Source: Bdellovibrionales bacterium GWB1_55_8
GTDB taxonomy: Bacteria > Bdellovibrionota > UBA1018
Assembly (NCBI GenBank): GCA_001769835.1
Contig: MEPR01000007.1
Location: 1 to 33,347, forward strand
Length of the DNA: 33,347 nt
Direction: 5' to 3'
In this document: one piece after another, positions 3,772-28,740 of the stretch
Layout of the letters: each line of letters starts with the position of its first letter
Position numbering within the stretch: the first letter of the stretch is position 1
Position numbers and translations under genes: made by a program
Notes under the pieces: model-generated
Told to the model about the DNA's origin: nothing
Databases searched by the model: none
Seen by the model: only the letters and a program-made list of their open reading frames with translations

Positions 3772-4362
3772 TCAACGCTTCGCCGCAGCCATTCTCGCGA
3801 ACGATTCCGTCAGCCTCGCTGCCGACGCCGCTTCGATTTCCTTGTGGAGTGAATTGCCGTGGGCGTCAATGGTCACGACCAGCGGGAAATTTTCCACACG
3901 AAGCTGCCAGATGGCTTCCGGGCTTCCGAAACGCTCGTACTCGTAAACGTTTTCGACTTCTTTCACGGCTTCGGCGAGCACCTGCGCCGCTCCGCCGATC
4001 GCATGCAGATAAGCACAGCCGCATTTCTGACAGGCCTGCCGGGTCTTTTCAGCCATGCCGCCTTTGCCGATGATCGCCCGAAGTCCAAAACGCTCGATGA
4101 TGCCGGCCTGGTAAGGCTCTTCCCGAATGGAGGTCGTCGGCCCTGCGGCTTTCACCACCCATTTGCCTTTTTCTCGGATCACCACAGGTCCGCAATGATA
4201 GATCACGCCGTCTTTCAAACTCACCGGCGGTTCGTTGCCTTCATGCAGCCATTTGTGGACGGCGTCGCGGCCCGTGAAAATCGTGCCGCTCAACTCGACC
4301 ATGTCCCCCACCTTCAGGGAACGAATCTTTTCTTCAGTAAATGGAGCTTCCAATCGAATCAT
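3772..4362 (-). CDS. Class I fumarase/tartrate dehydratase, beta subunit
   Basis: This 196-residue protein matches the C-terminal (beta) domain of iron-sulfur class I hydro-lyases, which interconvert fumarate and malate (or dehydrate tartrate). Visible landmarks are VGDMVELSGTIFTGRDAVHKWL near the N-terminus, a YHCGPVV segment, GKGGM, and the C-terminal HAIGGAAQVLAE. E. coli FumA/FumB carry this as one fused chain; here it is a separate gene 23 bases downstream of the alpha gene, as in archaea and many anaerobes and in TtdAB. GAGG sits about ten bases before the ATG. Fumarase and tartrate dehydratase cannot be separated by eye; fumarase is likelier in a non-enteric genome. Confidence 0.88.
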   Translation of the reverse strand: MIRLEAPFTEEKIRSLKVGDMVELSGTIFTGRDAVHKWLHEGNEPPVSLKDGVIYHCGPVVIREKGKWVVKAAGPTTSIREEPYQAGIIERFGLRAIIGKGGMAEKTRQACQKCGCAYLHAIGGAAQVLAEAVKEVENVYEYERFGSPEAIWQLRVENFPLVVTIDAHGNSLHKEIEAASAARLTESFARMAAAKR

Positions 4363-4385
4363 AACTGTTCATCCTCGCGCAAAGC

Positions 4386-5279
4386 TCAGTAGAGCCACTT
4401 TTTGATTTCGCCCTTGGCAGAGACCTGTGCGCCTTGGCGGCGGAAGGCCCAGCACATGTAAGAGACACTGACAAAAAAGGAAGCAGGCAGGCGGTTCAAC
4501 GCGCCCACCTTCACGCCCATCAGCGTGGTTTTACCACCGAAACCCATGGGTCCGATCCCAAGCGTATTGGCTTCACGAACGGTCTCTTCCTCGATTCCGG
4601 CCAGCACAGGGTCTGGGTTCTTGTCACCCATTTTCCTCAGGAGTTGTTCCTTGGATTCGAGATAACCCGCGCCACGGTCGCCGCCGATGGCCACGCCGAG
4701 AATGCCGGGCCCGCAGCCTTTGCCTTGAGCATTTTGTACGGCGTCCAGAATGCATTTCTTCACACCAGCGACATCGCGGCCCGCGCCGATGCGATTGTCA
4801 GGCAAGCTGTATTGCACGCCCATGTTTTCGCAGCCGCCGCCCTTCAGCATCAGGCGAACATCAAAATGATCTTTATTCCAGGGTTCCAGATGAAGACTCG
4901 GTGAACCCGGGCCGATATTGGTTCCGCTGTTCTTTCCGGTGAGGCTGTCGACGCTGTTCTGGCGCAAATAGCCTTTCTTCGTCGCGTCGACGACCGCCTT
5001 GCGCATCACTTTCGCAAGGGCCTCGCCATCGAACTTACGGGGGTAATGAACGTAAAAAAGAATGCTTCCGGTATCCTGGCAAAGCGGCTGGCTTTTCTGC
5101 TTCGCGAGACCGATGTTTTTCTCGATGATCTCAAACGCGTACTTTGCGTTAGAACCGGCCTGCTCAGCCTGCATTCCCTTTTGGACCGCTTCAATGACAT
5201 CTTTGGGGAGTTCAGTGGAAGTTTTTCGAATGATCTCGATAAACGCTTCCAGAAACTTTTTCTGTTGCGTGGCGTTCAT
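4386..5279 (-). CDS. Class I fumarase/tartrate dehydratase, alpha subunit ([4Fe-4S])
   Basis: This is the catalytic cluster-bearing subunit (297 residues) of the two-subunit hydro-lyase. Three conserved cysteines that would hold the oxygen-sensitive [4Fe-4S] cluster are present: C67 in QPLCQDTG, C150 in KGGGCENMG and C189 in GKGCGPG. The fourth iron is left free for substrate, as the family mechanism requires. The region GVAIGGDRGAGYLESKEQLL is also diagnostic. The length agrees with stand-alone alpha subunits (about 280-300). GAGGA lies at good distance before the ATG at 5279. The alpha-beta order and tight spacing indicate one operon. The enzyme would act in the TCA cycle or in reductive fumarate metabolism. 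Confidence 0.9.
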   Translation of the reverse strand: MNATQQKKFLEAFIEIIRKTSTELPKDVIEAVQKGMQAEQAGSNAKYAFEIIEKNIGLAKQKSQPLCQDTGSILFYVHYPRKFDGEALAKVMRKAVVDATKKGYLRQNSVDSLTGKNSGTNIGPGSPSLHLEPWNKDHFDVRLMLKGGGCENMGVQYSLPDNRIGAGRDVAGVKKCILDAVQNAQGKGCGPGILGVAIGGDRGAGYLESKEQLLRKMGDKNPDPVLAGIEEETVREANTLGIGPMGFGGKTTLMGVKVGALNRLPASFFVSVSYMCWAFRRQGAQVSAKGEIKKWLY

Positions 5280-6746: not shown

Positions 6747-8987
6747 TCAGCGAAAGGTGAATTGGTTATGGCACTCGGCGCAGTTTCTCTGAACGAGAAG
6801 CGGATTGTGAGGCGGCGAAGCGGCGCTCAAGGCATCCTGCAGATGGCAATCCACGCAACGATCCGGCGTGCCCTGATAGACACCGCCCCGGTGGCAGGAG
6901 TAGCAATCCAGGGTCCGGTGAATGCCTCTCAGCGGAAATCTCGTCATCGAATGCTTGAACTCGGTACTTTCCCAGAACTGCTGCCGATGGCATTCCCCGC
7001 AGTTCGGAAGCCCGCCGTGATGCACGTCATCCTTCTGATGACAGAGCAGGCAGTTCTCGCTCATGCCGCCCAGGCGCTTTCCGCCCTGGTGGCATTCCGA
7101 ACACTTCAATGAATAGTGAACGCCGGAAAGCGAAAAACCGCGATGGAAATCGCGCTGCTTTTTCCATGTGTCGTCTCCATGGCACTCCGCACAGCTGGGA
7201 CCGAAACTTCCCTTGTGAGGATCCTTGTGGCAGGCGGCGCAGTTCCGCTCCGCGATCTCGGCGAAAACGAAGCGCCTTGCGGGGCGGGGCGGTTTGGATT
7301 CAAGGAATTCGCTTCCAGGCATATGGCACTTCTCACAGCGCGCAGCCGCATGCTTTCCGCGAAGCGGAAGCGACGTGCGGTCGTGATCGAACTTCCGTAA
7401 CTTCTTGAACGACGCCGTCAGGTGACAATCGCCGCACGAACGCTCACGACTTGCCGGCGTGAACTGCTTGAGATGGACGTTCTTGTGACAATCCCCGCAA
7501 AAACCTTTCTTGTCGGACGCGAACTGGAACATCTGCTTTTTGCCTCGGATATGGCACTTCGAGCACTCCAGTTCTGAATGCTTCCCATCGATCTGAAAGC
7601 GGGTCGCTTTCTCGTCGTGAACAAAACGCGCGCGATGCCGGTCAAACAGCTTCCAATCTTTCACGATGTGACAGTCCGAGCACTTGATCTCGCTAGCCTT
7701 CGCACTAAACACCTTTTCATGCACGTTTTTGTGACAGGTGGCGCAGTTCTTCTCAGCGAGTTCCGTGAACTCGTAGCGGCTGGACTGGTTTGGGGGCGAG
7801 GACGTTTTGTGACATTTCGCGCAGGCTAGTTTCTTGTGTTTCCCCTCAAGCGGGTACCTCGTATTGACCTCATGCCTGAAGTCACGAATCTCTTTCCAGT
7901 TCGTCTCCGTATGGCAGTTCAGGCAGGCGTTCGGCGTCTTCGTGCGGGGAGACCTGAATTCTCCGAAGAAATGAAAATCCTTATGACAGCTCAGGCAACC
8001 CTGTTTCAGACCCGCCCATTGAAACTCCTTTTTGCCCGCGGAACCTTGCCGAAGAATGGCCTGCGGCTGCTTATGGCATTTCAAGCAATCGGTTGAGGCG
8101 TGCTCGCCCTTGAGCGGGTAGGATGTCACGCCGTGATCGAATTTTTCGATCTTCCAGGCTTCCTCGCCGTGGCACTTGGAACATTCACCGCCCCGGAAGC
8201 GCTCGCTCAAGCGCTGGCCATGGGTGTCTTCATGGCAGCTCTGGCACTTCTTCCGGGCGAGCTCAGGCCATTTGTAAATCACCTGGCCTTCTTTCGGCCG
8301 GTGACATTTCGCGCATTTCGACCGCGCGTGTTTCCCGTCGAGACGAAAACGCCCGTCCTTCTCGTGATCAAAGCGGATGTCCGTCTTCCAGGATTTGACC
8401 CCATGGCAGGAGCTGCAATCTTTCAAGGCAAATGGGTCCTGAAACTTGTGCACGTCATGTTTCTTGTGGCAGGAAACGCAGCTCACCTTGAGCCCCATGA
8501 ATCTGGGCTCGCCCAGCCTGAGCTTCTTTTCGTTCGCTTGCGATCTTTTTTCCGTATGACACTCGACGCATTTCAGCCTCGCGTGCTTCCCCACAAGCTC
8601 ATAACCGGTCAGCGCGTGATTGAATTTATTCTCGTCGATCAGGGTCGTATCGTGCGCGCGCCCCTTATGCTCGCCGTGGCACTGAATACAGGTCTTCTTT
8701 GCCAGCCCGTGAAACCCCGTTTTCCTCTCCACCTGCTCGCGCACTTCCTTGTGGCAATCGAGGCATTTCGAATCCGGAACTCCTTTTCTCGGCACATGAC
8801 ACTTCAGACACTGCGCGGTCTCAAGATTCCGGTGACCCTCGATCATAGGACCCGGCGCGAGGAGCTTGTTCAGAAGCCCTTCCGTCTTTTCACTCGACAG
8901 CCTTTGTTCGAGAGGGTTTGAGGCCCATGCCGCGCTCAGAGTAAAGAAAACAAAGGCGGCGAAGAAGGCCCCAGTTCTATGAATCAC
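6747..8987 (-). CDS. 27-haem exported c-type cytochrome
   Basis: The 746-residue protein starts with a Sec signal peptide (FFAAFVFFTLSAAWA) and contains 27 canonical CXXCH haem-attachment motifs by direct count, about one per 27 residues. Eight copies of the pattern FxH...LxGxH....CxxCH divide it into similar modules of roughly three haems, where the extra histidines can serve as distal haem ligands. No lipobox, membrane anchor or enzymatic domain is seen, so it is probably a periplasmic or surface-displayed molecular wire. The start is GTG at 8985-8987, overlapping the barrel gene stop as GTGA, with GGGGGA upstream. It is the last of five tightly packed genes, and overlap with a beta-barrel gene is what porin-cytochrome conduits show. 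Exact partners and the redox target are unknown. Covalent haem attachment would need the cytochrome c maturation system, which is not encoded here. Confidence 0.93.
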   Translation of the reverse strand: MIHRTGAFFAAFVFFTLSAAWASNPLEQRLSSEKTEGLLNKLLAPGPMIEGHRNLETAQCLKCHVPRKGVPDSKCLDCHKEVREQVERKTGFHGLAKKTCIQCHGEHKGRAHDTTLIDENKFNHALTGYELVGKHARLKCVECHTEKRSQANEKKLRLGEPRFMGLKVSCVSCHKKHDVHKFQDPFALKDCSSCHGVKSWKTDIRFDHEKDGRFRLDGKHARSKCAKCHRPKEGQVIYKWPELARKKCQSCHEDTHGQRLSERFRGGECSKCHGEEAWKIEKFDHGVTSYPLKGEHASTDCLKCHKQPQAILRQGSAGKKEFQWAGLKQGCLSCHKDFHFFGEFRSPRTKTPNACLNCHTETNWKEIRDFRHEVNTRYPLEGKHKKLACAKCHKTSSPPNQSSRYEFTELAEKNCATCHKNVHEKVFSAKASEIKCSDCHIVKDWKLFDRHRARFVHDEKATRFQIDGKHSELECSKCHIRGKKQMFQFASDKKGFCGDCHKNVHLKQFTPASRERSCGDCHLTASFKKLRKFDHDRTSLPLRGKHAAARCEKCHMPGSEFLESKPPRPARRFVFAEIAERNCAACHKDPHKGSFGPSCAECHGDDTWKKQRDFHRGFSLSGVHYSLKCSECHQGGKRLGGMSENCLLCHQKDDVHHGGLPNCGECHRQQFWESTEFKHSMTRFPLRGIHRTLDCYSCHRGGVYQGTPDRCVDCHLQDALSAASPPHNPLLVQRNCAECHNQFTFR

Positions 8988-10372
8988 AATTTCCCCCGCG
9001 ACGGCGCGGCGTCCCGGATGGGTGCCACGCCTCTGCTTCCAAAACGATACCCGATCCGGAAGAAGGTACTGAAGATACTGACCCTCTCGTCACGGGCGCT
9101 CTGGAGCGACACTGTCGCATAAAGCGACTTCGAAAGATGGCGTGCCACACCCAATTCGCTCAGCCACGGATGGGTGACAAACCCGCTGTCCTCGCTCTTC
9201 ACTCCGTACTCCTGATCAAAAGTGACTTCCCAATCCCTGGAATAGTAGCCCAGGGTAGCCCGCGCAAGCGAGTCCGTACTCACGAAATCGCGGCGTCGTC
9301 CGACACTCATCTGAAGCGCGACACGGCCTCCAAAAAGCTGAGGAAAAGAAAGCCCGAACCATCCTTCCTTGCGGGAAAGCGCATCGGCGCTTCGGACCCC
9401 GTAGGAACCACTCAGCTGCAGGTCCGCAACACTCCCGATTCGCTGTTTCACGGACCAGGTCGCCTCCTTGTAAGGACTTGGAGCAAGGACCTCCAAGAGG
9501 TTCTGTCTTCGCGAATACTGGATCACGTCGATTGCGGAAAAACTGAGATCGCTTGAAAGCCCTTTTGAAATCCCCGTCAGCCCCTGTCTCCATGACAGGT
9601 ACGCCGTCTGGACATAGATTCGCGGAACGAAATCCAGGTAAACGAGGCTCGTCAGGTGCCCTTCCCTTCCCCACTGGTAGACCAGGTTGTTAAAGAAGTA
9701 CGCGCGGTCCAGATGGTTTTCCACCGTCTGTCCGACAAAGGCCGCCGTTCCGTGGAAGTGCCGCACCCACCCTTCCGATTTCGGGACATAGGCCAGGTAG
9801 GATCCGAAGACCGCGGCATCACGATTGAACTGAAGATAAGACTGATCGATCCGCGCGGGGTTCAATCCAGCAAAAAGGGCCGATCGGAGATTATCAGAGA
9901 AGCGCAATCCCGCTTCCGCCCCATCCACATGGACAGCACCCGCCTCCCAGAGCGGGAAACGCCCAAGTGTGAAGTAAAACGATCCGTCCTCGTTCGGGTC
10001 TCGGATCGAAAGCTGCCTCAATTGGAAGGTGTTTGCCCCGCCTAGCTCAAGAAGTTCCCGGTTGAGCTTGTCGAAAAAGTCGTGCTTGTCGCGCAGATCG
10101 AGCGTCGCCTCGTACTCCGCGCTTTCTCCCAATCGGGAGGCCCGAAGAAAAAAACGACTTGAAACCGTTGCAAAGTCGTTTCGGGTCTGCCCATCGAGCG
10201 CATCGATGAATGATTCGGTCGAGGCATAGGCGCCGGCAGTGAAGCGCGCATCGATCTCAGCCTCTCCTCGCCCCTGGACGATACCGGGAATTCCCTCCAG
10301 TACGGATTCCTCGGCCCTGCCGATGACGGTTAAGACGAGAACCAGTGTCGCGACAAAGAACGATAACCTCAC
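8984..10372 (-). CDS. Outer-membrane beta-barrel protein, putative porin of a porin-cytochrome conduit
   Basis: This 462-residue protein has a signal peptide (LSFFVATLVLVLTVIGRAEE). It then shows long runs of alternating hydrophobic and polar residues with aromatic girdle residues, such as FYFTLGRFPLW, SLVYLDFVPRIYVQTAYL and VALQMSVGRRRDF. The last strand is IFSTFFRIGYRF, followed by a polar tail of about 15 residues, so the terminal aromatic is not the last residue. This pattern indicates an outer-membrane barrel; no OmpA or TonB plug domain is seen. It starts at GTG 10372 overlapping the cytochrome b gene (GTGA) and itself overlaps the 27-haem gene, so the three are translationally coupled. 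MtrB-type barrels are larger (about 700 residues) and OmbB-type ones similar in size. The role as a sheath for a multihaem wire is inferred from context. Confidence 0.75.
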   Translation of the reverse strand: MRLSFFVATLVLVLTVIGRAEESVLEGIPGIVQGRGEAEIDARFTAGAYASTESFIDALDGQTRNDFATVSSRFFLRASRLGESAEYEATLDLRDKHDFFDKLNRELLELGGANTFQLRQLSIRDPNEDGSFYFTLGRFPLWEAGAVHVDGAEAGLRFSDNLRSALFAGLNPARIDQSYLQFNRDAAVFGSYLAYVPKSEGWVRHFHGTAAFVGQTVENHLDRAYFFNNLVYQWGREGHLTSLVYLDFVPRIYVQTAYLSWRQGLTGISKGLSSDLSFSAIDVIQYSRRQNLLEVLAPSPYKEATWSVKQRIGSVADLQLSGSYGVRSADALSRKEGWFGLSFPQLFGGRVALQMSVGRRRDFVSTDSLARATLGYYSRDWEVTFDQEYGVKSEDSGFVTHPWLSELGVARHLSKSLYATVSLQSARDERVSIFSTFFRIGYRFGSRGVAPIRDAAPSRGKL

Positions 10373-11226
10373 GCCGCCTCGGAAACACGGAACAGGAGCG
10401 CGACCACGATATGGATCGCCGCCACAAGATACATGAAAACGGCAAATGGCATATGAAAGCTATGCCAGTAACCCATGACCTGCTGAAAATGCGCTTGATA
10501 AAGTATCCGACGCCGCGTGATCGCAAGTGCATGCAACGTGGCCTTCATCTGAGGCTCAAACTTTCTCAGGCCGAAATGAAGCCGCAAGTCCCCGAGAATC
10601 GAACTAAAAACCGCCTTGAGAACCGCCTGTCCGTTCGGTTCGTCAAGCACCTGCGCCCCGGCGAGCCGGATCGCACGAAGCTTGAAGGCTTCCACCTGCA
10701 CCGCAAGATCCGCTCCAGGCCGCGAAAGTAAGGCCGCGTGCTGCCTGAGCCGAAGCTCGTGATTCTCCAACTCCCTTTCAAGTTCCAGCTGCTGTCGGGC
10801 GGCTTGCACGAAGAAATAGCGGCCCACGATCCCGCTCAAAAAAGAAACCACCATGCTCCAGAAGCTGATCGCAACGAGACCGCCCACCTTGAAGTTCGTA
10901 TGGAACAGAATGAACGTCGGCCCGGCCAGTCCGCAAAAGATGTGGAAGTCGAGCCAACCCGTTGTCGAACCGAATTTTCTCAGGGGAGTCCATCGCTTCC
11001 TGAGAACGTAAAAATTCGTCAGAACCATCAGGGAGAAGCCCGCCCATCCGTACCAAAGGCTGATTCTTCCGCCAGGCCTAGGGTTGAGCGAACCCTGAAG
11101 TACGGGAACGCGCTCCTGCAGATACCCGATCAGACTCAGTTCCGGAACGAAGTTGAGCGCGAAGGCTTCGTACGCCAACCCTAATGAAAGAAGTATCCAG
11201 AGCCTGATGTAACCTCTCAACCGCAT
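10369..11226 (-). CDS. Dihaem cytochrome b-type membrane protein
   Basis: The 285-residue protein has about five hydrophobic segments (near residues 9-27, 56-75, 93-112, 114-140 and 257-279). Histidines H95 and H109 in one helix and H258 and H272 in another are each 14 residues apart, the spacing by which two transmembrane helices ligate two stacked b haems. H255 is a further candidate. Between the fourth and fifth segments lies a charged, helical, probably cytoplasmic region of about 115 residues (QQLELERELENHELRLRQH), which is unusual for a short cytochrome b. It would pass electrons across the inner membrane, probably from quinol or from the flavoprotein of the same operon to the periplasmic cytochromes. 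A strong ribosome site (GAGAGGGG) precedes ATG 11226. I do not recognise a named family. Confidence 0.78.
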   Translation of the reverse strand: MRLRGYIRLWILLSLGLAYEAFALNFVPELSLIGYLQERVPVLQGSLNPRPGGRISLWYGWAGFSLMVLTNFYVLRKRWTPLRKFGSTTGWLDFHIFCGLAGPTFILFHTNFKVGGLVAISFWSMVVSFLSGIVGRYFFVQAARQQLELERELENHELRLRQHAALLSRPGADLAVQVEAFKLRAIRLAGAQVLDEPNGQAVLKAVFSSILGDLRLHFGLRKFEPQMKATLHALAITRRRILYQAHFQQVMGYWHSFHMPFAVFMYLVAAIHIVVALLFRVSEAA

Positions 11227-11250
11227 ATGCCCCCTCTCAAAGTTCCCCTC

Positions 11251-13290
11251 TCATCGGGACCAGGATTTTTTCTTCTTGTTGTGACAGTTATAACAGTTTC
11301 CATCGCCCGTGAGGCTGACCTTGGAATCGTTGCGATGCTCTTTCTGTCCATCTGACGTATGACAGGGCAAGCAGAACGAGATGTTTCGGTTCGCGCTGTC
11401 GGTGTGCCCGAAAGTGAAGCGGCTCACAGTGGCACTGGCTGAAACATGGCACGAAGAGCAGTCTTTCGCCGCGTAATGCCCTGTTGGCCGTGTCGATTCG
11501 TGGCAGGCATTACAGCTCGTGGGCACCGGCGCATGCGTGTAAATCCCGCCCGCCCACGTCGTGCCAGGTTGCTTGTGGCAGCTCACGCAATCACCCGAGC
11601 CGTAGGGATTGTGATTGAATTTATTGACCTCTCCGACCGGTTTCTGCTGCTCGTGACAAGGCAGGCAAGTCGTCCTCACGATTCCATTCGCCTGATGATC
11701 GAATATGAATACGCCGTTTTCAGCCGTCCTGGGCTCATGGCAGTTCAGGCATTCACTTGTTCCGAAATGCCCGTTCAAAGCCGTGGATGTGGCCGGAAAA
11801 AGCGTCTTAAGTGGACGATCCTTCTCGTGGCAGCTCAGGCACTGGGCCAGTGCCGGGGAATTCGCGGGATGCGGACTCGGGACGGTCTCAGCCCAGGCCT
11901 TCGTCGGATCCATGTGACAGCTCACACAATCATTTCCCACGAAATGAGCCGGGGCAGGACGACTCGTTTCATGGCAAGGCAGGCATGATACCTGTTTACG
12001 TCCTCCGGGCTCATGAGCGAATCGGAAAACGGTTACGGTTCCCCCGTTTCGAGGGTTATGACAGAGAAAACAATCCTGACCAGTGAAGTGCCCCTGCGTC
12101 CGTTTCGAGGCGTTTGGAAAGAGCGTGGTCGAAGGGCGATCACCCTCGTGGCAGGCGTTGCAATGAGGCGGCATCGGCGAGTTGCCCGGGTGCGGGCTCG
12201 CGGTCGGCAGATTCCAGGGATTCGCGGGGTTCGTGTGGCAGCTTCCGCAATCCTTTTCGGGATAATGATCGGCGCGCGGGCGCGAAGTCTCGTGACATTC
12301 GGAACAGGTACTTCGGGATACCCCGTTTGCATCGTGCTTGAAACGAAAAACTCCAAGAACGGAGCTTTTAGGTTCGTGGCAGGCGATACAATCCTGAGAA
12401 CTGAAATGGTGTGAAAGCGCCGGCCCTGCGGAGCCGATCCTCGTCGTCACGGGTCTCACCGTTTCATGGCAGCCGTTGCAGGACGGAGGCATGGGAACAT
12501 TGCTCGGATGCGGGCTTTTCACCGAGAGAATCCAGGGTTTCGCGGGATCGAGGTGACATCCGACGCAGTCCTGACCGGGATAGTGCGAAGGCGACTTGCG
12601 CGCAGGCTCATGACACGGCAGACAGGTGGAAACTGTTTTGGCGGCGCTCGATTGATGCGTGAAAACAAATGTCCTCGCCACGCCCGCGCCGGTTTCATGG
12701 CAGGCTCCGCAATCCTGGGCGCCAAAGTGCCCCTCGGCGGCGGATGACACGGGAGGCGGAAGCCGCGTCTGCATGGGTCGATTCACCTCATGGCAGATTC
12801 GGCAGTCAGCGGGAGAAGGCTTGTGATTGAAGGCAAGCAGATCGTTCCAGAGGGTTCCGGCGCGATGGCAGCCGACGCAATCCTGCCCTCCTCCGTGCGC
12901 CACACCTTGAATCGGCGCTGGCCGGCTCGCTTCGTGGCAGCGTGCGCAGTCGTTCGGGACGGGACGGTGATCGAAAGCGGTCACATCGCTCCAGTTTCCT
13001 CCGGCACGATGGCACTGCAGGCAGTCTTTACCCTCCCCATGGATAACGGGCGATTGCGGTTTTACCGGTTTTCCGTCTCCAATCACATCACCGTCCATCG
13101 TGATCGGAACGGTCGTCGCGGAGGGCCTGTCCTTTTCATGACACTGAAGGCAGCTTTGCCGCTCAAAACCCGCGTGAGAGAAGTTCGCTATACGACGCCC
13201 CGGATCCTCCACCCGGGGAGCCTCGAAACACCCCTGCAGAACGATAAGAGAGGGCACTACAGCCAGCAAAACCACGCCCGAGCACTTCAT
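11251..13290 (-). CDS. 24-haem lipoprotein c-type cytochrome with tandem tetrahaem modules
   Basis: The 679-residue protein begins with a lipoprotein signal (VPSLIVLQGC, lipidated Cys21) and has 24 CXXCH motifs by direct count. From residue 188 onward a four-haem module of about 107 residues repeats: starts near 188, 295, 401 and 508. Each full copy carries CXXCH at the same relative places and shared phrases such as HETSRP, DCxSCH, PHPxNxPMPP and CNACHE; the fourth copy is partial. The N-terminal third and the C-terminus hold the remaining haems in less regular spacing, and the last residues are Lys-rich (NKKKKSWSR). The lipid anchor suggests attachment to the outer (or inner) membrane. Its ATG overlaps the flavoprotein stop (ATGA). 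It probably relays electrons across the periplasm between the cytochrome b and the outer-membrane barrel. Confidence 0.92.
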   Translation of the reverse strand: MKCSGVVLLAVVPSLIVLQGCFEAPRVEDPGRRIANFSHAGFERQSCLQCHEKDRPSATTVPITMDGDVIGDGKPVKPQSPVIHGEGKDCLQCHRAGGNWSDVTAFDHRPVPNDCARCHEASRPAPIQGVAHGGGQDCVGCHRAGTLWNDLLAFNHKPSPADCRICHEVNRPMQTRLPPPVSSAAEGHFGAQDCGACHETGAGVARTFVFTHQSSAAKTVSTCLPCHEPARKSPSHYPGQDCVGCHLDPAKPWILSVKSPHPSNVPMPPSCNGCHETVRPVTTRIGSAGPALSHHFSSQDCIACHEPKSSVLGVFRFKHDANGVSRSTCSECHETSRPRADHYPEKDCGSCHTNPANPWNLPTASPHPGNSPMPPHCNACHEGDRPSTTLFPNASKRTQGHFTGQDCFLCHNPRNGGTVTVFRFAHEPGGRKQVSCLPCHETSRPAPAHFVGNDCVSCHMDPTKAWAETVPSPHPANSPALAQCLSCHEKDRPLKTLFPATSTALNGHFGTSECLNCHEPRTAENGVFIFDHQANGIVRTTCLPCHEQQKPVGEVNKFNHNPYGSGDCVSCHKQPGTTWAGGIYTHAPVPTSCNACHESTRPTGHYAAKDCSSCHVSASATVSRFTFGHTDSANRNISFCLPCHTSDGQKEHRNDSKVSLTGDGNCYNCHNKKKKSWSR
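11769..12729 (-). repeat. Three in-gene tetrahaem repeats plus the boundary of a fourth
   Basis: These coordinates cover residues 188 to about 508 of the 24-haem cytochrome, where a module of about 320 bp repeats three times, with a partial fourth copy starting at the left boundary. The copies are similar in protein sequence rather than identical in DNA, so the duplications are not very recent. Confidence 0.75.
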
Positions 13291-14669
13291 GCGTGCACCC
13301 CCACGAGGTTTTCAGCGAGTCCTTCGCCGAATTTTTTGTCGATCTGGATCCCAAGGCTCATCAGGAACTTGTTGGGCATCTCGGCGCCGGCGAATACGAA
13401 AAGAAAATCGTTTGCGATCTTCCCAGGCGCAATCCCTCCAGCAGTGTCACCCTCTGTCTCGATCAGAAGATGCTTCTCGCCGATCTCCTTGACGGCGCTG
13501 TTGTAGCGGATCACAAGTTTTCCCTGCTCGGCCATCGCGATGACGATCTGCTTGTTCTCCTCATTGCACCGATCAAACCCGGATCCCCGCACCAGGAGCG
13601 TGACCCGGTTTCCGAGTTCCGGCTTTGCGAGGTACTGCGCGGCCTCGACACCGGCGTTGCCGCCACCGACCACCGCCACGTCCACTTGTCTGTACTGCGC
13701 CGGATCGATCAGATTGTAGGCCACCTTCGGCAAGTCCTCGTTCGGAAGCCCCAGCTTCCGCGGACTCCCGCGGACCCCGATGGCAAGAATCACCTTTTCC
13801 GCCGTGATGATTCCTGCATTTGTCGTGACCTTGAAGAAGCCCTCACCCCGCTCGATTCCTTCGAAGCGGATTTTTTCGCGGATCTGAAGCCCGGTCTTCT
13901 TCCGGACCTCGTTCCAGAACGCGAGAAGTTCCTCCTTGCTCACCTTGTTTTTCGGGAACTTCATCGTCCCGGCGAGCGGAAGTTCCGCAGGATGCGTCAT
14001 CACAACCTTCTGTCGCGGAAAGTTGTAAACCGTCCCGCCGAAGCTATTCTGTTCGATGCAAAGATAACTTTTTTTCTCCGCGATCGCGGTCAGCGAGGCA
14101 GCCAGTCCGGCGGGACCCGCGCCGACGATAAGGACGTCGACTTGCGTCTGGGCGCGTGACAGATGAGCAATCGCATGCTTGGCCGCTAAGTGCCCCTGCT
14201 TCACGGCATTACGGATCAGCCCCATGCCCCCAAGCTCGCCCGCGATGTAAAGTCCCGGGATGTTTGTCTCGTAGTTCGGAGTGATCCGTGGAATATCCAT
14301 TCCACGCGTTTTCGTTCCGAAGACCAGGCGGATTGCCCCTTGAGGGCAGTGCTGCTCACACTCGCCATGTCCCACGCATTTTGTCGGAGAGACGAGGACG
14401 GGCTTGTGATCGATGAGCTTGAGCACCTCCCCTTCGGGGCAGACACGGGTACAGGTCCCGCATCCAACGCACAACGCCGGATTAATTTCAGGATGTAACG
14501 TGAGAGGCTCGGCGAGATTGCTGGCGATCGCCTTTTGAAGAAGCTTCTTTGCGCGGGCGGCGCTCTTCCGGCGGGCGCGTATTTGTCGAATCGCAAAGCC
14601 GAGCAGCAATAGGATGCCGAACGCACCGCTATTGTCGCTGAGGACTGCCGAAAGGGGGTCAAGTTCCAT
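13287..14669 (-). CDS. Membrane-anchored flavoprotein-ferredoxin oxidoreductase
   Basis: The 460-residue protein has one N-terminal hydrophobic segment (FGILLLLGFAI, about 17-27) followed by basic residues, which anchors it with the rest in the cytoplasm. A two-cluster ferredoxin domain follows: C67/C70/C73/C77 (CVGCGTCTRVCPEG) and C98/C104/C108, where the second cysteine position is His101 (CVGHGECEQHCPQG). Next is IPGLYIAGELGGMG (138-151), then an FAD-binding GAGPAG (183-188) and, about 160 residues later, an NAD(P)-binding GGGNAG. The fold resembles thioredoxin-reductase-like pyridine-nucleotide oxidoreductases. It could take electrons from NAD(P)H via FAD and the Fe-S clusters to the cytochrome b. 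It is the first gene of the five-gene operon, just after the promoter/operator at 14723-14750. The expected redox-active CxxC of thioredoxin reductases is not seen in the FAD/NAD region. Confidence 0.85.
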   Translation of the reverse strand: MELDPLSAVLSDNSGAFGILLLLGFAIRQIRARRKSAARAKKLLQKAIASNLAEPLTLHPEINPALCVGCGTCTRVCPEGEVLKLIDHKPVLVSPTKCVGHGECEQHCPQGAIRLVFGTKTRGMDIPRITPNYETNIPGLYIAGELGGMGLIRNAVKQGHLAAKHAIAHLSRAQTQVDVLIVGAGPAGLAASLTAIAEKKSYLCIEQNSFGGTVYNFPRQKVVMTHPAELPLAGTMKFPKNKVSKEELLAFWNEVRKKTGLQIREKIRFEGIERGEGFFKVTTNAGIITAEKVILAIGVRGSPRKLGLPNEDLPKVAYNLIDPAQYRQVDVAVVGGGNAGVEAAQYLAKPELGNRVTLLVRGSGFDRCNEENKQIVIAMAEQGKLVIRYNSAVKEIGEKHLLIETEGDTAGGIAPGKIANDFLFVFAGAEMPNKFLMSLGIQIDKKFGEGLAENLVGVHA

Positions 14670-14904: not shown

Positions 14905-15924
14905 TTACCCGTGCCCGCCCATCAGAAAGCCGCCGTTGAGCTGACGCTCATCGGCCGCGTGTGCGTTTTTTTCGAAGAACTCGCGGGCTTCGCACCAAAG
15001 ATCTTCCGGATTGGCGATTGTGAAAACCTTCCGACGGAACTCATGACAGCCAGGAAACCCCGAGGAAAACCATGCGAGAAATTTCCGGGCTTGAATCATT
15101 GCCGTGTGCGGGTTGTAGAAGGAGCTGAAAAGCCCGCCGAGTTCCTCGATTGCCGAGACGAAACGATCATGTGTCGCGACCAGGGGCGCTTCCCCTTTCC
15201 ACACGGCACGAGCTTGCTCGAAGATGAACGGATTTCTGAGCGCAGGGCGGCCGATCATGACAGCATCGACCCCTGATTCACGAAGTCGTCTGTTCGCGAT
15301 CTCGGCGTTCACGAGATCCCCGTTTCCAATGATCGGAATCGAACTCTTGGCTTTCAGGTCGCCAATGAAATCCCAATCCGCCTCACCGCTGTATCCTTGC
15401 GCGCGCGTTCTTCCGTGAATCGCCACGAATGCCACTCCGGCATCGGCGGCTACTCTCACTACCTCATGCGCGTTCCGCGAGGACTCGTCCCAGCCGCTTC
15501 GGATCTTGATCGTCACCGGAATTTTCACGGACTCCACCATCGCGCGGAGAATCCGGCTGAGCTCCAACGGGTTACGGGTCATGGCGGCACCGCCGCCCTT
15601 CTTGACGACCTTCGGAACAGGGCAGCCCATGTTCAAATCAACAAAGTCGGCACCGAGCCGCTCGATGAGGCGCGCGGCCTCGCAGAGCCGCGAAACCTCT
15701 TCACCGAAAATTTGCAGGCCGATCGGGCGTTCATCCGGTTCGTAATGCAGAAGCTTCAGGGTCTTTTCACCCGCGTACGCGATCCCGTTCGCGGAAACCA
15801 GTTCCGAGACCACCAGCGAGGCGCCGTGCTTTCTCATCAGCCGGCGAAAAGGGGAATCCGTGATGCCTGCCATGGGGGCGAGCACGAACGGATGTTCCAG
15901 CTGCAGCGGACCTAGCTTGATCAT
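14905..15924 (-). CDS. dusB: tRNA-dihydrouridine synthase (DusB-like)
   Basis: The FMN enzyme reduces specific uridines of tRNA to dihydrouridine using NADPH. The 339-residue TIM-barrel protein shows the family signatures: LAPMAGITDSPFR (15-27), DLNMGCPVPK with catalytic C101, the GGGAAM following it, IKIRSGWD, IHGRTRAQGY, IIGNGD and MIGRPALRNP, which bind FMN and the substrate base. The C-terminal helical domain is present, so the protein looks complete. DusB is the most widespread bacterial branch, hence the symbol; the exact subtype is by resemblance. It lies 27 bases downstream of the Xaa-Pro aminopeptidase gene on the same strand and probably shares its message. Confidence 0.9.
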   Translation of the reverse strand: MIKLGPLQLEHPFVLAPMAGITDSPFRRLMRKHGASLVVSELVSANGIAYAGEKTLKLLHYEPDERPIGLQIFGEEVSRLCEAARLIERLGADFVDLNMGCPVPKVVKKGGGAAMTRNPLELSRILRAMVESVKIPVTIKIRSGWDESSRNAHEVVRVAADAGVAFVAIHGRTRAQGYSGEADWDFIGDLKAKSSIPIIGNGDLVNAEIANRRLRESGVDAVMIGRPALRNPFIFEQARAVWKGEAPLVATHDRFVSAIEELGGLFSSFYNPHTAMIQARKFLAWFSSGFPGCHEFRRKVFTIANPEDLWCEAREFFEKNAHAADERQLNGGFLMGGHG

Positions 15925-24462: not shown

Positions 24463-25932
24463 TCAAGCAAGTGCAACAGCAGCGCGCTCCTCGAAATGGG
24501 TATTGCGCCCCTCGTGTTGAGCGACAACGACACCGGACATTTCAGATAATTTGCGAATGGATGAGTTCAGATCCTCGATCTGATCGCGGAGGCTGACGGA
24601 GATCGACGAGAGTTCCTCGGAACCCGCCGCATTCGTTTGAACCGCCTGCTCAACCTGGGTCACCGCTGCGGCGATCTGTCCGATTCCGGAAGTCTGTTGC
24701 GTGCTGGCTTCCGCCACCCCGACAATGAGGTCGGTCACCTCGCGTATCCGCGAAATAATCCCCGCGAGCACCTCGCTGATCTCCTCTGCGACATCCACGC
24801 CTTGTTTTGCATTTTTACGAGCGACCTCAATCAGGTCTGTGGTGCTCTTTGCGGCTTCCGCACTCCGCAGCGCCAGATTCCGAACTTCCTCCGCCACGAC
24901 CGCGAAACCACGGCCCGCGTCCCCGGCACGAGCCGCCTCAACGGCGGCATTCAGAGCCAGAAGATTGGTTTGAAACGCGATCTCATTGATGGTGTCCACG
25001 ATCGCCGCCGTCTGCTCGGAAGAACCTTGAATCGCGCGCGTCACGGTTGCCATCGTGCCCATTGCCTCTTTCGCACGATCGGCGGACTCACGGGTCTGGC
25101 CCGCAAATTCCTTTGCCTTGTTGGCATTTTCAGAATTCAATTTGGAGCTCGCCGCGAGCTCTTCCAGCGTGGCCGAAATTTCGGTAATGCTTGCCGCCTG
25201 CTCGCTTGCCCCCGTGGCAATCTGCTCGCTCGACGCTGACACCTGAACCGAAAAGCTCGAAACTTCGTTCGCGCCCCGCCCCAGGGATCCGATGACTTCC
25301 GTCAAAAGCCTGATCACACTTCGAGTCAGGACTCCGCCGAAAACAGTGCCGAAGAGAATTCCACCGATAGCAAGCCAGAGGATCAGGGAACGCGAGGACC
25401 GCGCGGAGCCGAGCATCTGCTCGTCGGTCATGATCTTGCTTCCGACCACTTTGGTGATCTCACGGAGCAACCGCTGCACCGTAATCAGATTGGGCGTGGT
25501 TTCCGCCATGTAGATCTGGTTTCCAGAACTCTTCTGATCGCGAATCCTCGCGGCCGAGGCATGAAGCGCATTGTGCGCCCCCTCTATTTCCTGCAGCTGC
25601 GACCGGATTTCCGGCACCAATCGCTCCGCAGTAGCCCTGCCTTCCCCGTAATACCATTTTCCGAAACCGCAGTTCTTCGGGTTCAGCTCGATCGCAAGTT
25701 CAGTTGCCTTGTGGTCCATGAGGAAAGCGCTGACTTTTCCCGCCCAGTTGAGGTGGTCGACCTCCCTTTGCAGCATCTCGCCTTTAAGGGAGTTTCCGGA
25801 AATCACCAGACCGGCCTCGGTGACCAATCGTGAGATTCCAAAAAACGATATTCCCGCTACAATGGCGAACACGACCAGAACGCTGCCCAGTCCGACCGCG
25901 ATTTTCTTTCCAATAGTGAAATTCCCGGACAT
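24463..25932 (-). CDS. Methyl-accepting chemotaxis protein with a periplasmic CZB zinc-binding domain
   Basis: This 489-residue transmembrane chemoreceptor has TM1 (about 13-33) and TM2 (about 183-205), with a sensor domain between them. The sensor has the chemoreceptor zinc-binding (CZB) pattern: HLNW (H60), [12 protein letters not shown] (C88) and AHNALHASA (H120, H124), so all 3His/1Cys metal ligands are present. The cytoplasmic part has the signalling hairpin tip ([22 protein letters not shown]) and methylation helices, but no C-terminal NWETF-like tether for CheR. The start is ATG 25932, nine bases after a strong AGGAGG; a TTG two codons earlier is in frame but too close. It would sense zinc or an oxidant acting on the thiol, and control flagella or another CheA output. 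No che genes are in the window. Confidence 0.9.
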
Positions 25933-25966
25933 AAACAAACGCCTCCTCGTTGATCAATTCACCTCA

Positions 25967-26084: not shown

Positions 26085-27284
26085 ATGCCTTTCGTTGGAA
26101 CCGGAAAGAGCACAAGTCACGACGCCCACGACGCGGGAAGAGAAGCGGCGCTTCAGGCTATCCAATCTCTTTCGGGACAACAGCCCGGCCTTCTTCTCGT
26201 TTTCGGAACGGCCGGCTACAACCAGCAGGAGCTGCTTGACGGCATTTTTGAGATAGCCGGTCAAGTGCCTCTTTCAGGCTGCTCGACGTCCGGGGTGATC
26301 ACTCAGGCAGGATCGGACGAAAGCAGCCATGCGGTTGCCGTGCTCGCGCTTTCGCATGCTGCTCACTATCAGACTTTTCAGGCACGCGGGTTTGGTGCGC
26401 ACGCCCGGATTTGTGCCGAAGAGCTCAGCCGGAAGATCCGCGAGTCGGCCCCTCGCGATGCCAGGTTACTCCTTTTGTTTCCGGACGGTCTCACCGGAAA
26501 TGTGACGGAACTGGTCGCGCGAATCGAGGCAACACTCCCTCGCTCCGTGAAAATCGCCGGTGGAACATCAGGCGAGTTACTGAAGCTGAATCGCACCTGG
26601 CAATATCATGACGGACGCGCGGAATCGGACACGGTCTCAGCTGTTCTGATCAGCGGCAGCGTCAGTGCCGAGGTGAAGGTCAGCCACAGCTGCGAACCCA
26701 TCGGTCTCGAACAAACCGTGACCCGTGCGGAGGGTGGGTGGATTTACGAAATCGACGGACACCCCGCCTGGTCGGTGTACAAGCAGTACCTGGACCCGCA
26801 GGAGAAAGAACCTGAACTGCTCAGCATGGCCCATGTCTGCTACATCTGCCTTGCGGAGATTCTCCCGGAACCCGATCCAGCCTACGGTAAATACATTATC
26901 CGATGCCCACTTCAGGTGGACCACAGTACAGGCGCATTGTTTTTCCCTGGCAATATCGTCAAAGGAACGAAAGTGCGCATGGCGTTGCGCAGCGCGGAGC
27001 GCGCGGTTTCCCAGGCACTCTCCACTGGCCGCACGATCCTGGCCCGCCACCCCGGAAAAAAACCGGCTCTGCTCCTTCATTTCGATTGTTGCTGCCGGGC
27101 ACGCCTGCTCTTCGGCGCCTGCTCCGCGGATGCAGTCATTCAGCCGCTCCAGCAGTTGTTCGGGCAGGAGGTTCCCTGGTTCGGTTTCAATACGTACGGT
27201 GAGATTGCCGCGCTCGATGATGGAAGAACCTTGTTTCATAACTACAGCACGGTGCTTTGCGCACTTTATCTGGATTCAACGTGA
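26085..27284 (+). CDS. FIST-domain sensory protein
   Basis: FIST domains are intracellular ligand-sensing modules, proposed to bind small molecules such as amino acids and often encoded beside kinases or chemoreceptors. The 399-residue protein has a FIST_N domain (about 30-225; GLLLVFGTAGYNQQELL, PLSGCSTSGVIT, KIAGGTSGE) and a FIST_C domain (about 235-385; HVCYICLAEILPE, GALFFPGNI, PALLLHFDCCCRARLLFG, PWFGFNTYGEIA). No signal peptide, membrane helix or output domain is visible, so it must signal through a partner. The histidine kinase starts 22 bases downstream, and the chemoreceptor is transcribed divergently. The CCC at the end of LLLHFDCCCR is family-like and could be redox or metal sensitive. 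There is no clear Shine-Dalgarno before ATG 26085. Confidence 0.88.
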   Translation: MPFVGTGKSTSHDAHDAGREAALQAIQSLSGQQPGLLLVFGTAGYNQQELLDGIFEIAGQVPLSGCSTSGVITQAGSDESSHAVAVLALSHAAHYQTFQARGFGAHARICAEELSRKIRESAPRDARLLLLFPDGLTGNVTELVARIEATLPRSVKIAGGTSGELLKLNRTWQYHDGRAESDTVSAVLISGSVSAEVKVSHSCEPIGLEQTVTRAEGGWIYEIDGHPAWSVYKQYLDPQEKEPELLSMAHVCYICLAEILPEPDPAYGKYIIRCPLQVDHSTGALFFPGNIVKGTKVRMALRSAERAVSQALSTGRTILARHPGKKPALLLHFDCCCRARLLFGACSADAVIQPLQQLFGQEVPWFGFNTYGEIAALDDGRTLFHNYSTVLCALYLDST

Positions 27285-27306
27285 TGATGAGGGGACGCCG
27301 CACGCC

Positions 27307-28740
27307 ATGGAAATGTTTGCCTCCAAACGATTTAAAAAACAGATTGCGACGCTGAAAGAGGAAAACCAGATCCTCAACGAGCAGGTCAAACAGCTTGTGA
27401 AAGCGGAGCGCCGCCTTTCGCTTTCACAGGAACGCTTGGATCGCCAGCTTCAGCGCGTGGAGGTTTTGAACAAGTTCTCGCTTGCAGCACGGCGCACGGA
27501 GGACTCCGCTCAGATCTTCTCGCTGGGAATAGACGCGCTCTTTTCGGTTTTTCCCTATGAGCAGGCCGTCGCCTTCCGGATAAAAGAGGGAGCAATCACG
27601 CCGTCAGTAGCCAGGGCGGTTCAAGGACGCGAATCGCGCCGGGGTGCGCTCATGCCCCAGCTCGACAGCTCCGTACGCATCCGGACGATTCCCCTGGGTG
27701 CCGTCATCGGGACGGCGATGGACGTCAGACGACGGCTGCCGCAGATCGCCCCCTTGCTCGACTATCTGGAAAGCCAATTTGCCGACAAGGATAAGAGCTC
27801 GGATCCCTCGGGCATGGCCGTACTGGTGCTACCCGTCTTCATGAAAGAAACGACGGAACTCCAGGGAGCGCTGCTACTCAGAAGATACGCTACGAGTTTT
27901 TCATTTTTTGAACAGCTGCCGTCACAGGAGGACATGCCATTCCTCCGACTGGTGGAAGCACACGTCACGCAGGCTTTCGAAAACGCCCGTCTCTATCGGG
28001 AAGCACAACAGGCGATCCATGTGCGTGACGAATTCCTGTCCATCGCATCTCATGAGCTCAGAACACCGATCACCCCGCTGAAAAACGAGCTTCACCTCAT
28101 CAAACTCCTCGTGAATGAGGATCTCCTCACCACCTATCCGAAAGAGCGGCTTCAAAAATTGGTGAACATCGCCGATCGGGAACTGGTGCGCCTGACCCGG
28201 CTGATCGATGGAATGCTCGAAGTGACCCGCATCACCTCCGGTCGTTTCATTCTGAAATATGAAAAAATCCGGATCTCCGAACTCATCAGCGAGATGGTTG
28301 AAAGATTTCGGTACCAGATCATGGAATCCGGAGGCGTGGTCAATCTGGATCTCAAGGACACGGAACCAGGGCTCTGGGACCGCATCAGAATTGAGCAGGT
28401 GATCACGAATCTGATCACCAATGCGATCCGCTACGGAAGAGGAAAGCCCATCACGGTCCGCTCCAGGACCGAGCACGGGTATGCAACGATCACAGTGGAG
28501 GACGAGGGCATCGGGATACCGAAAGAACAGCAGACGCGGCTGTTTAGAAAGTTTGAAACCGCCTTTTCATCGCGCGTCTTCGGCGGCCTCGGTCTCGGGC
28601 TCTACATCACCCGCCAGATTGTTGAAGCGCACCACGGGAAGATCGGTGTCAAAAGCACGCCTGGCGTCGGGACCCAGTTCACGATGGAGCTTCCGCTGGA
28701 CGCGACCAGCGATATCAAAACGGAAAAAGCCGCTGCCTGA
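27307..28740 (+). CDS. Soluble sensor histidine kinase with N-terminal coiled coil and GAF-like domain
   Basis: The 477-residue protein starts with a coiled coil (about 8-45; KKQIATLKEENQILNEQVKQ) and a GAF-like domain (about 50-235), preceding the kinase core. HisKA has SHELRTPIT with the phosphorylated His at about 249. HATPase_c has NLITNAIRYG (N box), DEGIGIP (G1) and GLGLGLYITRQIV (G2). No membrane segment is present. I place the start at ATG 27307; the frame is open back to 26725, but that stretch lies inside the FIST gene and has no family similarity. It sits 22 bases after the FIST gene, which suggests that FIST ligand binding controls this kinase. No response regulator is adjacent. 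The stop codon lies inside the terminator stem. Confidence 0.9.
   Translation: MEMFASKRFKKQIATLKEENQILNEQVKQLVKAERRLSLSQERLDRQLQRVEVLNKFSLAARRTEDSAQIFSLGIDALFSVFPYEQAVAFRIKEGAITPSVARAVQGRESRRGALMPQLDSSVRIRTIPLGAVIGTAMDVRRRLPQIAPLLDYLESQFADKDKSSDPSGMAVLVLPVFMKETTELQGALLLRRYATSFSFFEQLPSQEDMPFLRLVEAHVTQAFENARLYREAQQAIHVRDEFLSIASHELRTPITPLKNELHLIKLLVNEDLLTTYPKERLQKLVNIADRELVRLTRLIDGMLEVTRITSGRFILKYEKIRISELISEMVERFRYQIMESGGVVNLDLKDTEPGLWDRIRIEQVITNLITNAIRYGRGKPITVRSRTEHGYATITVEDEGIGIPKEQQTRLFRKFETAFSSRVFGGLGLGLYITRQIVEAHHGKIGVKSTPGVGTQFTMELPLDATSDIKTEKAAA

Follow-up and report, generated by a model that had tools for sequence, protein, structure and literature searches.

A putative PCC3-type trans-envelope electron conduit with an added FAD/Fe-S protein in a Bdellovibrionota genome

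Introduction

In the best-studied trans-envelope conduits, electrons come from quinol dehydrogenases and the periplasm is crossed by small shuttles. An operon of five genes in the metagenome-assembled genome (MAG) of Bdellovibrionales bacterium GWB1_55_8 raises the question of whether one transcription unit might encode the whole path, from the cytosol to the cell exterior, and where electrons would enter it. The operon lies on the minus strand of contig MEPR01000007.1 (assembly GCA_001769835.1), in a stretch of 33,347 nt that is referred to below as the window. It encodes a membrane-anchored FAD/Fe-S protein, a 24-haem lipoprotein, a dihaem cytochrome b, an outer-membrane β-barrel and a 27-haem exported cytochrome c (Table 1). 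The original prediction, made from the window alone, had proposed that these genes might form a conduit across the envelope, including an entry module of its own in the inner membrane. This part is well supported by the comparisons presented here, i.e., by the co-occurrence of the genes and by an architecture known as PCC3. On balance we favour the view that the operon encodes one PCC3-type trans-envelope electron conduit to which a cytosolic NAD(P)H dehydrogenase has been added. The conduit itself is likely; the direction of electron flow and the coupling to NAD(P)H are offered as hypotheses.

Table 1. Positions of the operon genes and of features within their products (window coordinates).
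Feature	Position	Strand	Description
FAD/[Fe-S] protein gene, first in operon	13287-14669	minus	460 aa, membrane-anchored
N-terminal transmembrane helix, residues 8-27	14589-14648	minus	from hydropathy; followed by basic stretch RQIRARRKSAARAKK
2[Fe-S] domain, residues 60-115	14325-14492	minus	two-cluster ferredoxin domain, Fer4_10
Relocated C-terminal FAD segment, residues 119-171	14157-14315	minus	ETNIPGLYIAGE; precedes GxGxxG motif
FAD/NAD(P)H-binding core, residues 176-450	13320-14144	minus	GAGPAG and GGGNAG motifs
24-haem lipoprotein c-cytochrome gene	11251-13290	minus	679 aa
Dihaem cytochrome b gene	10369-11226	minus	285 aa, five transmembrane helices
TM3, WLDFH95-x13-H109 haem-b ligands	10897-10965	minus	from alignment
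TM5, WHSFH258-x13-H272 haem-b ligands	10399-10467	minus	from alignment
Outer-membrane β-barrel gene	8984-10372	minus	462 aa, signal peptide
27-haem exported c-cytochrome gene	6747-8987	minus	746 aa
N-terminal cap, first trihaem unit, residues 52-131	8595-8834	minus	preceded by conserved LLNKLLAPGPLIEGH
Length-variable middle units (spacer)	7362-8339	minus	37-44% identity; relatives total 7 to 11 units
C-terminal cap, last two trihaem units, residues 621-746	6750-7127	minus	spacing near-fixed; ends CHNQFxF

Five genes that occur together

The arrangement first described, five same-strand genes joined by three 4-nt overlaps (13287-13290, 10369-10372 and 8984-8987) and a single 24-nt gap (11227-11250), is present exactly as given. 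A recount of CXXCH motifs also returned the 24 and 27 reported for the lipoprotein and the exported protein, with every CH inside a CXXCH. None is present in 5871 aa of other window proteins, and chance alone would give about 0.001 per protein of 746 aa with this composition. Since the two cytochromes have 50 and 59 His, respectively, enough are available for bis-His ligation of all 24 and 27 haems to be possible.

The cytochrome b (E < 1e-20) was found in 17 and the full-length barrel in 18 of 291 genomes of the phylum, with both in 17. The naive hypergeometric p for this overlap, uncorrected for kinship, is ~1e-26. In the sole barrel-only genome (G084) the contig breaks off directly behind the lipoprotein gene, at the place expected for the cytochrome b. 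The concern attached to the original prediction, that the barrel might be an unrelated porin encoded apart from these genes, did not materialise. All 17 genomes with a full cytochrome b carry the barrel gene, which directly precedes the gene for the large multihaem cytochrome (MHC), with a 4-nt overlap at 9 of 12 loci. Three further genomes (G095, G113 and G046) have the identical five-gene order; in others the loci are rearranged, while the FAD protein-cytochrome b and barrel-MHC pairs are kept. Occurrence is scattered, with 6 of ~26 genomes listed for the window's own family carrying the set, which suggests that it is acquired or lost as a whole. One named relative, from a single genome-contig scan, is the Bdellovibrionales-labelled MAG HKST-UBA12, which carries the FAD protein and the cytochrome b. 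A search of the bins for rRNA yielded no SSU rRNA.

Architecture shared with PCC3

PCC3 is a predicted conduit that has received little study, first described in iron oxidisers (PMC5566968) and reported from Alpha-, Beta- and Gammaproteobacteria, e.g., Sideroxydans and Leptothrix (He et al. 2017, PMC5566968). It combines a barrel, an extracellular MHC, a periplasmic MHC with 21-27 haems and an inner-membrane protein of ~300 aa with five transmembrane helices and two b-haems (PMC5566968, PMC10734462).

Two WX3HX13H motifs together with SGXXG constitute the signature of the PCC3/PCC4 inner-membrane protein, which has been proposed to hold two b-haems (He et al. 2017, PMC5566968). In the operon's cytochrome b, W91-H95-H109 lies in transmembrane helix (TM) 3, SGIVG in TM4 and W254-H258-H272 in TM5; judged by this exact signature, it is a PCC3/PCC4-type inner-membrane protein. 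His 95, 109, 258 and 272 and the S-G--G residues are invariant in the alignment (n = 17), in keeping with the bis-His dihaem cytochrome b first proposed; the first Trp of WX3HX13H is missing in L029, L037 and L041. An AlphaFold2 model has five long helices (residues 3-26, 54-78, 88-109, 117-167 and 225-278). The cytochrome b belongs to no Pfam or NCBIfam family above cut-off, and a PDB search with its profile gave no match.

The barrel, likewise recognised from the start, would take the place of the PCC3 porin. Its structure prediction has 22 strands (mean pLDDT 76.7), and in Foldseek the model matches outer-membrane barrels. No sequence relative was found in Pfam, NCBIfam or the PDB, nor any relative in the viral contig set. 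The 24-haem protein (Pfam Cytochrome_C7, 8e-28) has a lipobox, LQGC, with Cys21 followed by Phe at position +2; the Cys after the signal is kept in its relatives (c24 type) wherever the N-terminus is covered. These relatives vary widely in length and carry from 8 to at least 42 haems, a variability reminiscent of the PCC3 extracellular MHC, which has 10-35 haems in Gallionellaceae (PMC10734462). Very large c24-type cytochromes occupy the surface-lipoprotein position in L123 (10372-13797, at least 42 CXXCH) and L038 (2-3778, at least 35). The 27-haem protein, presumably periplasmic, fits the cytochrome of ~21-27 haems.

As far as sequence and predicted structure can tell, the operon matches the PCC3 architecture in every feature examined save barrel size. 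Hence, the gene combination that the original prediction did not recognise is not new overall: most of it is PCC3 architecture (PMC5566968, PMC10734462). Apart from the much smaller barrel, it differs in the membrane-anchored FAD/Fe-S protein, which is absent from PCC3 descriptions, the ResB/CcsA genes in loci of the operon's relatives, and an occurrence outside the Alpha-, Beta- and Gammaproteobacteria, which would extend PCC3-like systems past the Proteobacteria of the original description. What appears to be new relative to PCC3 is the FAD/Fe-S protein and, in relatives, the cytochrome-maturation genes.

A trihaem-repeat cytochrome as a candidate periplasmic wire

The 27-haem protein has a signal peptide, lacks a lipobox and is composed of nine trihaem units. 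Its relatives carry 21-33 haems, and in the 16 complete proteins of this type (c27) the number is 21, 24, 27, 30 or 33, without exception divisible by three. Conservation among these 16 is concentrated at the ends, with mean pairwise identities of 54% in the first and 63% in the penultimate unit, the latter being the best conserved, as against 37-39% in the middle. A segment resembling LLNKLLAPGPLIEGH is present in MHCs of Emticicia, Methylophaga and Sphingobium. The N-terminal cap is the probable docking end for the inner-membrane module, and the C-terminal cap is a candidate for the part inserted in the barrel.

It has been calculated that ~27 haems are needed to cross a periplasm of 200 Å (Edwards et al., PMC7096707), and the periplasmic MHCs of Gallionellaceae PCC3 have 21, 24 and 27 haems (Hoover et al. 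2023, PMC10734462). Because the ends are conserved and the middle is variable, and given these numbers, we infer that the 27-haem protein is a periplasm-spanning wire, or "ruler", with its middle units setting the length. The variation in repeat number would then constitute a natural experiment on the wire length that the periplasm requires.

The added FAD/Fe-S protein

The first gene of the operon encodes a protein with Pyr_redox_3 (3e-36) and Fer4_10 (5e-11) domains in Pfam. It resembles YpdA/thioredoxin reductase (TrxR), scoring 153 bits with TIGR04018, under the NCBIfam cut-off of 340. Relatives are 55-66% identical and are encoded next or close to the cytochrome b gene. The hydrophobic N-terminus is kept in 17 relatives, and since a basic stretch follows the helix, the positive-inside rule suggests an N-out/C-in orientation with cytoplasmic FAD and Fe-S domains.

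The motif for Fe-S cluster I reads CxxCxxCxxxCP (C70 is replaced by Ser in the Emticicia protein) and that for cluster II CVGHGxCxxxCP, where His101 stands in place of the second Cys and is invariant in 18 aligned proteins. The resulting CxxHxxC is reminiscent of [3Fe-4S] or His-ligated clusters. A segment like ETNIPGLYIAGE normally closes the FAD domain in the Pyr_redox/TrxR-type superfamily. Here, residues 119-171 stand ahead of the FAD core. They show a weak match (E = 0.004) to GliT residues 271-322 (of 335) and a match to residues 253-293 of 309 in a TrxR, and they align at the same place in six solved relatives from two subfamilies. Conversely, residues 178-445 match only positions 2-253 of the 291 in Pyr_redox_2. 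Thus, the YpdA/TrxR-type FAD fold is apparently circularly permuted with a ferredoxin domain in front, an arrangement in which the Fe-S and FAD domains would lie side by side.

In the 18 aligned proteins no Cys is conserved outside the Fe-S domain, and the FAD motif reads GPAG. With neither a catalytic CXXC nor the single YpdA Cys near the FAD motif, a disulfide reductase of the YpdA/thioredoxin reductase kind is excluded. The same observation bears on the idea that the FAD/Fe-S protein and the cytochrome b supply reductant for haem attachment by ResB/CcsA instead of feeding the wire. ResB and/or CcsA genes do lie between or beside the cluster genes in 12 of the 18 barrel-bearing genomes, which speaks for this idea, as it does for the conduit. 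Disulfide chemistry is precluded by the missing Cys, however, and the operons of the window, G095, G113 and G046 lack ResB/CcsA; in the window genome a ResB-CcsA fusion is encoded at another locus, and its CcsA part is 46% identical to the cluster type. Moreover, a Methylophaga plasmid with a related module carries Ccm genes instead. We find a role in haem attachment barely credible. NAD(P)H, in turn, is the presumed partner of the FAD/Fe-S protein.

Relatives outside the phylum

A distant complete set is found on plasmid pEMTOL02 of Emticicia oligotrophica DSM 17448 (Bacteroidota), in the order CcsA/ResB fusion, cytochrome b, FAD/Fe-S protein, 23-haem cytochrome, 40-haem cytochrome and barrel-like protein. 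The FAD protein is 40% identical and shares the CVGHG motif, the cytochrome b is 30% identical, and for the 23-haem protein the match to c27 covers 79% of its length. Among 1624 open reading frames the barrel profile has a single outside match, the barrel-like protein (hmmsearch, E = 4e-6), whereas profile-profile comparison with this single protein gave a probability of 3.7%; homology is likely, not certain. We found no description of conduits from Bdellovibrionota or Emticicia in the open-access literature, nor any genetic test of PCC3; E. oligotrophica DSM 17448 offers a cultured carrier in which the PCC3 idea could be probed.

A shorter module occurs on the Methylophaga plasmid (L073), where a relative of the cytochrome b accompanies an FAD/NAD/2Fe-2S reductase and a 7-haem cytochrome, the barrel being absent. 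Sphingobium plasmids have the same three-gene layout, with a b-type protein that holds both HX13H motifs and a reductase identified by annotation only. The module, consisting of 2Fe-2S reductase, HX13H cytochrome b and 7-haem cytochrome, plus DUF1622, was noted in L126 and on ~25 other Sphingomonadaceae plasmids (neighbourhoods viewed in L126 and L073 only). The reductase is unrelated to the FAD/Fe-S protein (domains shown for Methylophaga), and a pyridine-nucleotide reductase would seem to be a recurrent partner of HX13H cytochromes b. It is chiefly because the type of reductase is swapped in Methylophaga and Sphingobium that we place the pyridine-nucleotide end of the chain, as a hypothesis, at the FAD protein.

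These relatives suggest another function as well. The Methylophaga module lies near heavy-metal genes and those of Sphingobium near copper-resistance genes, as would suit an NAD(P)H-fed periplasmic or outer-membrane redox capacitor, or a reductase for defence against metals or oxidants, in place of a respiratory conduit. They lack the barrel and the long MHCs, however, whereas in the phylum studied here barrel and cytochrome b are conserved to the same degree, and we consider a defence or capacitor role very unlikely.

Comparison with other known systems

PCC4 shares with the operon the motif class of the inner-membrane protein, a barrel and further Fe-S/redox proteins in the cluster. It differs in its MHCs, three small ones in the periplasm with 4, 5 and 10 haems and none outside the cell, as opposed to the operon's two MHCs with 24 and 27 haems. 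In MtrCAB, MtoAB and PioAB a barrel is likewise combined with an MHC, and the operon's MHCs weakly resemble DmsE/MtrA profiles. The search against conduit families proposed at the outset nevertheless places them outside MtrA/DmsE: the scores with TIGR03508 are 72.8 and 65.2 bits against a cut-off of 192.2, and the proteins have 27 and 24 haems, not 10. Nor does the barrel, given its lack of database relatives, match the MtrB family by sequence, and the dedicated cytochrome b and FAD/Fe-S protein are additions relative to these systems. The OmbB-OmaB-OmcB and ExtABCD conduits of Geobacter follow the same barrel-cytochrome principle and include a lipoprotein cytochrome, whereas their cytochromes have 8 and 12 haems and their quinol dehydrogenases (CbcL, ImcH) are separate. 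Matches to Ext conduits were limited to weak ones with ExtN/ExtO, below cut-off, and a match of operon proteins to HmcA was far below cut-off. By its way of working, the entry module recalls NOX and ferric reductases, in which a cytosolic FAD/NAD(P)H module feeds two b-haems on HX13H helices. Searches by sequence and by structure found no match to these enzymes, the operon has separate subunits with Fe-S clusters, and it would feed c-haems, not O2 or a ferric chelate.

Proposed electron path and its alternatives

For the conduit we envisage the following topology, part-to-part contacts, surface exposure, direction, substrate and localisation. The FAD/Fe-S protein, held by its single-helix anchor with its domains in the cytoplasm, would exchange electrons with NAD(P)H. 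Electrons would move on through its pair of Fe-S clusters and reach the five-TM cytochrome b, whose two b-haems would carry them across the inner membrane. The N-terminal unit of the 27-haem protein would accept them, its trihaem repeats would span the periplasm and its C-terminal units would enter the 22-strand barrel and surface at the cell exterior. There, the outer-membrane 24-haem lipoprotein would distribute electrons to an extracellular acceptor such as a mineral, humic matter, an electrode or a partner. If true, a device encoded by one operon would link cytosolic NAD(P)H straight to the exterior, with about as many haems as have been calculated to bridge the periplasm. A bolder version of this scheme, which we consider less likely than not, is that of a single wire, independent of quinones, that starts at cytosolic NAD(P)H and ends outside the cell. 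It would combine a permuted flavin/Fe-S dehydrogenase and a NOX-like dihaem cytochrome b with one continuous cytochrome, in which the number of trihaem units acts as a ruler of periplasm width, and would be carried across phyla.

Several points weigh against the proposed conduit and its NAD(P)H end. The likeness to PCC3 is one of architecture, and most PCC3 porins, with up to 42 TM regions, far exceed the barrel (462 aa, 22 strands) in size. In G056 and G260 no c24-like gene was seen close to the cluster, and a second copy in G143 has no cytochrome b alongside. Foldseek returned nothing significant for the cytochrome b model, so structure does not show a NOX-like fold. The use of NAD(P)H is deduced from the fold, a YpdA-like NAD(P)-binding motif being present in the sequence. 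Finally, He et al. (PMC5566968) model the PCC3/PCC4 inner-membrane protein as a quinone-active cytochrome b.

This last point leads to a conduit of the same kind that operates on the quinone pool. In this scenario menaquinone is the redox partner of the cytochrome b, as He et al. proposed for PCC3, and the FAD/Fe-S protein plays an accessory part that may be bifurcating, regulatory or concerned with reverse flow. The absence of the FAD protein from lists of PCC3 components agrees with it, as does the host's use of the quinone pool by an alternative-complex-III (ACIII)/Qrc-like complex and NrfH. On the other hand, the FAD/Fe-S gene shares a locus with the cytochrome b in nearly all relatives and in Emticicia, and a different NAD/FAD-type reductase occupies the same place in Methylophaga and Sphingobium. 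A quinone-linked conduit is therefore an alternative that we regard as unlikely.

The conduit with an NAD(P)H dehydrogenase could in principle run either way. The MAG (3.78 Mb) encodes many further multihaem cytochromes, three haem-copper oxidase genes, NrfH, an NrfA-like protein and the ACIII/Qrc-like complex. This gives the host the look of a respiratory generalist, which could plausibly profit from one more acceptor outside the cell. Inward flow, with Fe(II), minerals or a partner cell as the source and NAD(P)+ or terminal oxidases as the destination, is in line with the first description of PCC3 in iron oxidisers, with the three oxidase genes and with the reversibility, in principle, of multihaem conduits. 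Transfer from Fe(II) to NAD(P)+ is uphill and would need energy, for which the operon shows no coupling; this does not firmly exclude inward flow, as no search was made for carbon fixation or Cyc2-type Fe(II) oxidases. We take outward flow to be the likelier direction and regard an inward conduit as decidedly improbable.

Neighbouring genes and other multihaem loci

A dus-family gene (14905-15924) is located 235 nt upstream of the operon, and an exonuclease/phosphatase-family gene converges with it at a distance of 35 nt. Matches in a promoter and terminator scan were not above chance level.

The second G143 copy of the cluster (L119, G143:C21, 7413-12654) comprises FAD, barrel, 21-haem and c24-like genes. 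In the window's own genome, a second multihaem region (L080, G000:C17, 4812-12581) has 8-haem and 12-haem lipoprotein genes and, on the opposite strand, 6-, 11- (DmsE-like), 4-, 2- and 7-haem genes by a 429-aa protein with a hydrophobic N-terminus; it is possibly another conduit. Lipoprotein-like cytochromes with 15 haems (L083, 1137-2432) and 19 haems (L085, 16982-18571) are encoded elsewhere in this genome.

Within the window, a two-subunit fumarase (Fumerase, Fumerase_C) is encoded just past the operon on the minus strand (3772-5279). Further away, a histidine kinase gene overlaps a gene for a FIST-domain protein (26085-28740), and a methyl-accepting chemotaxis protein carrying a CZB zinc domain is encoded at 24463-25938.

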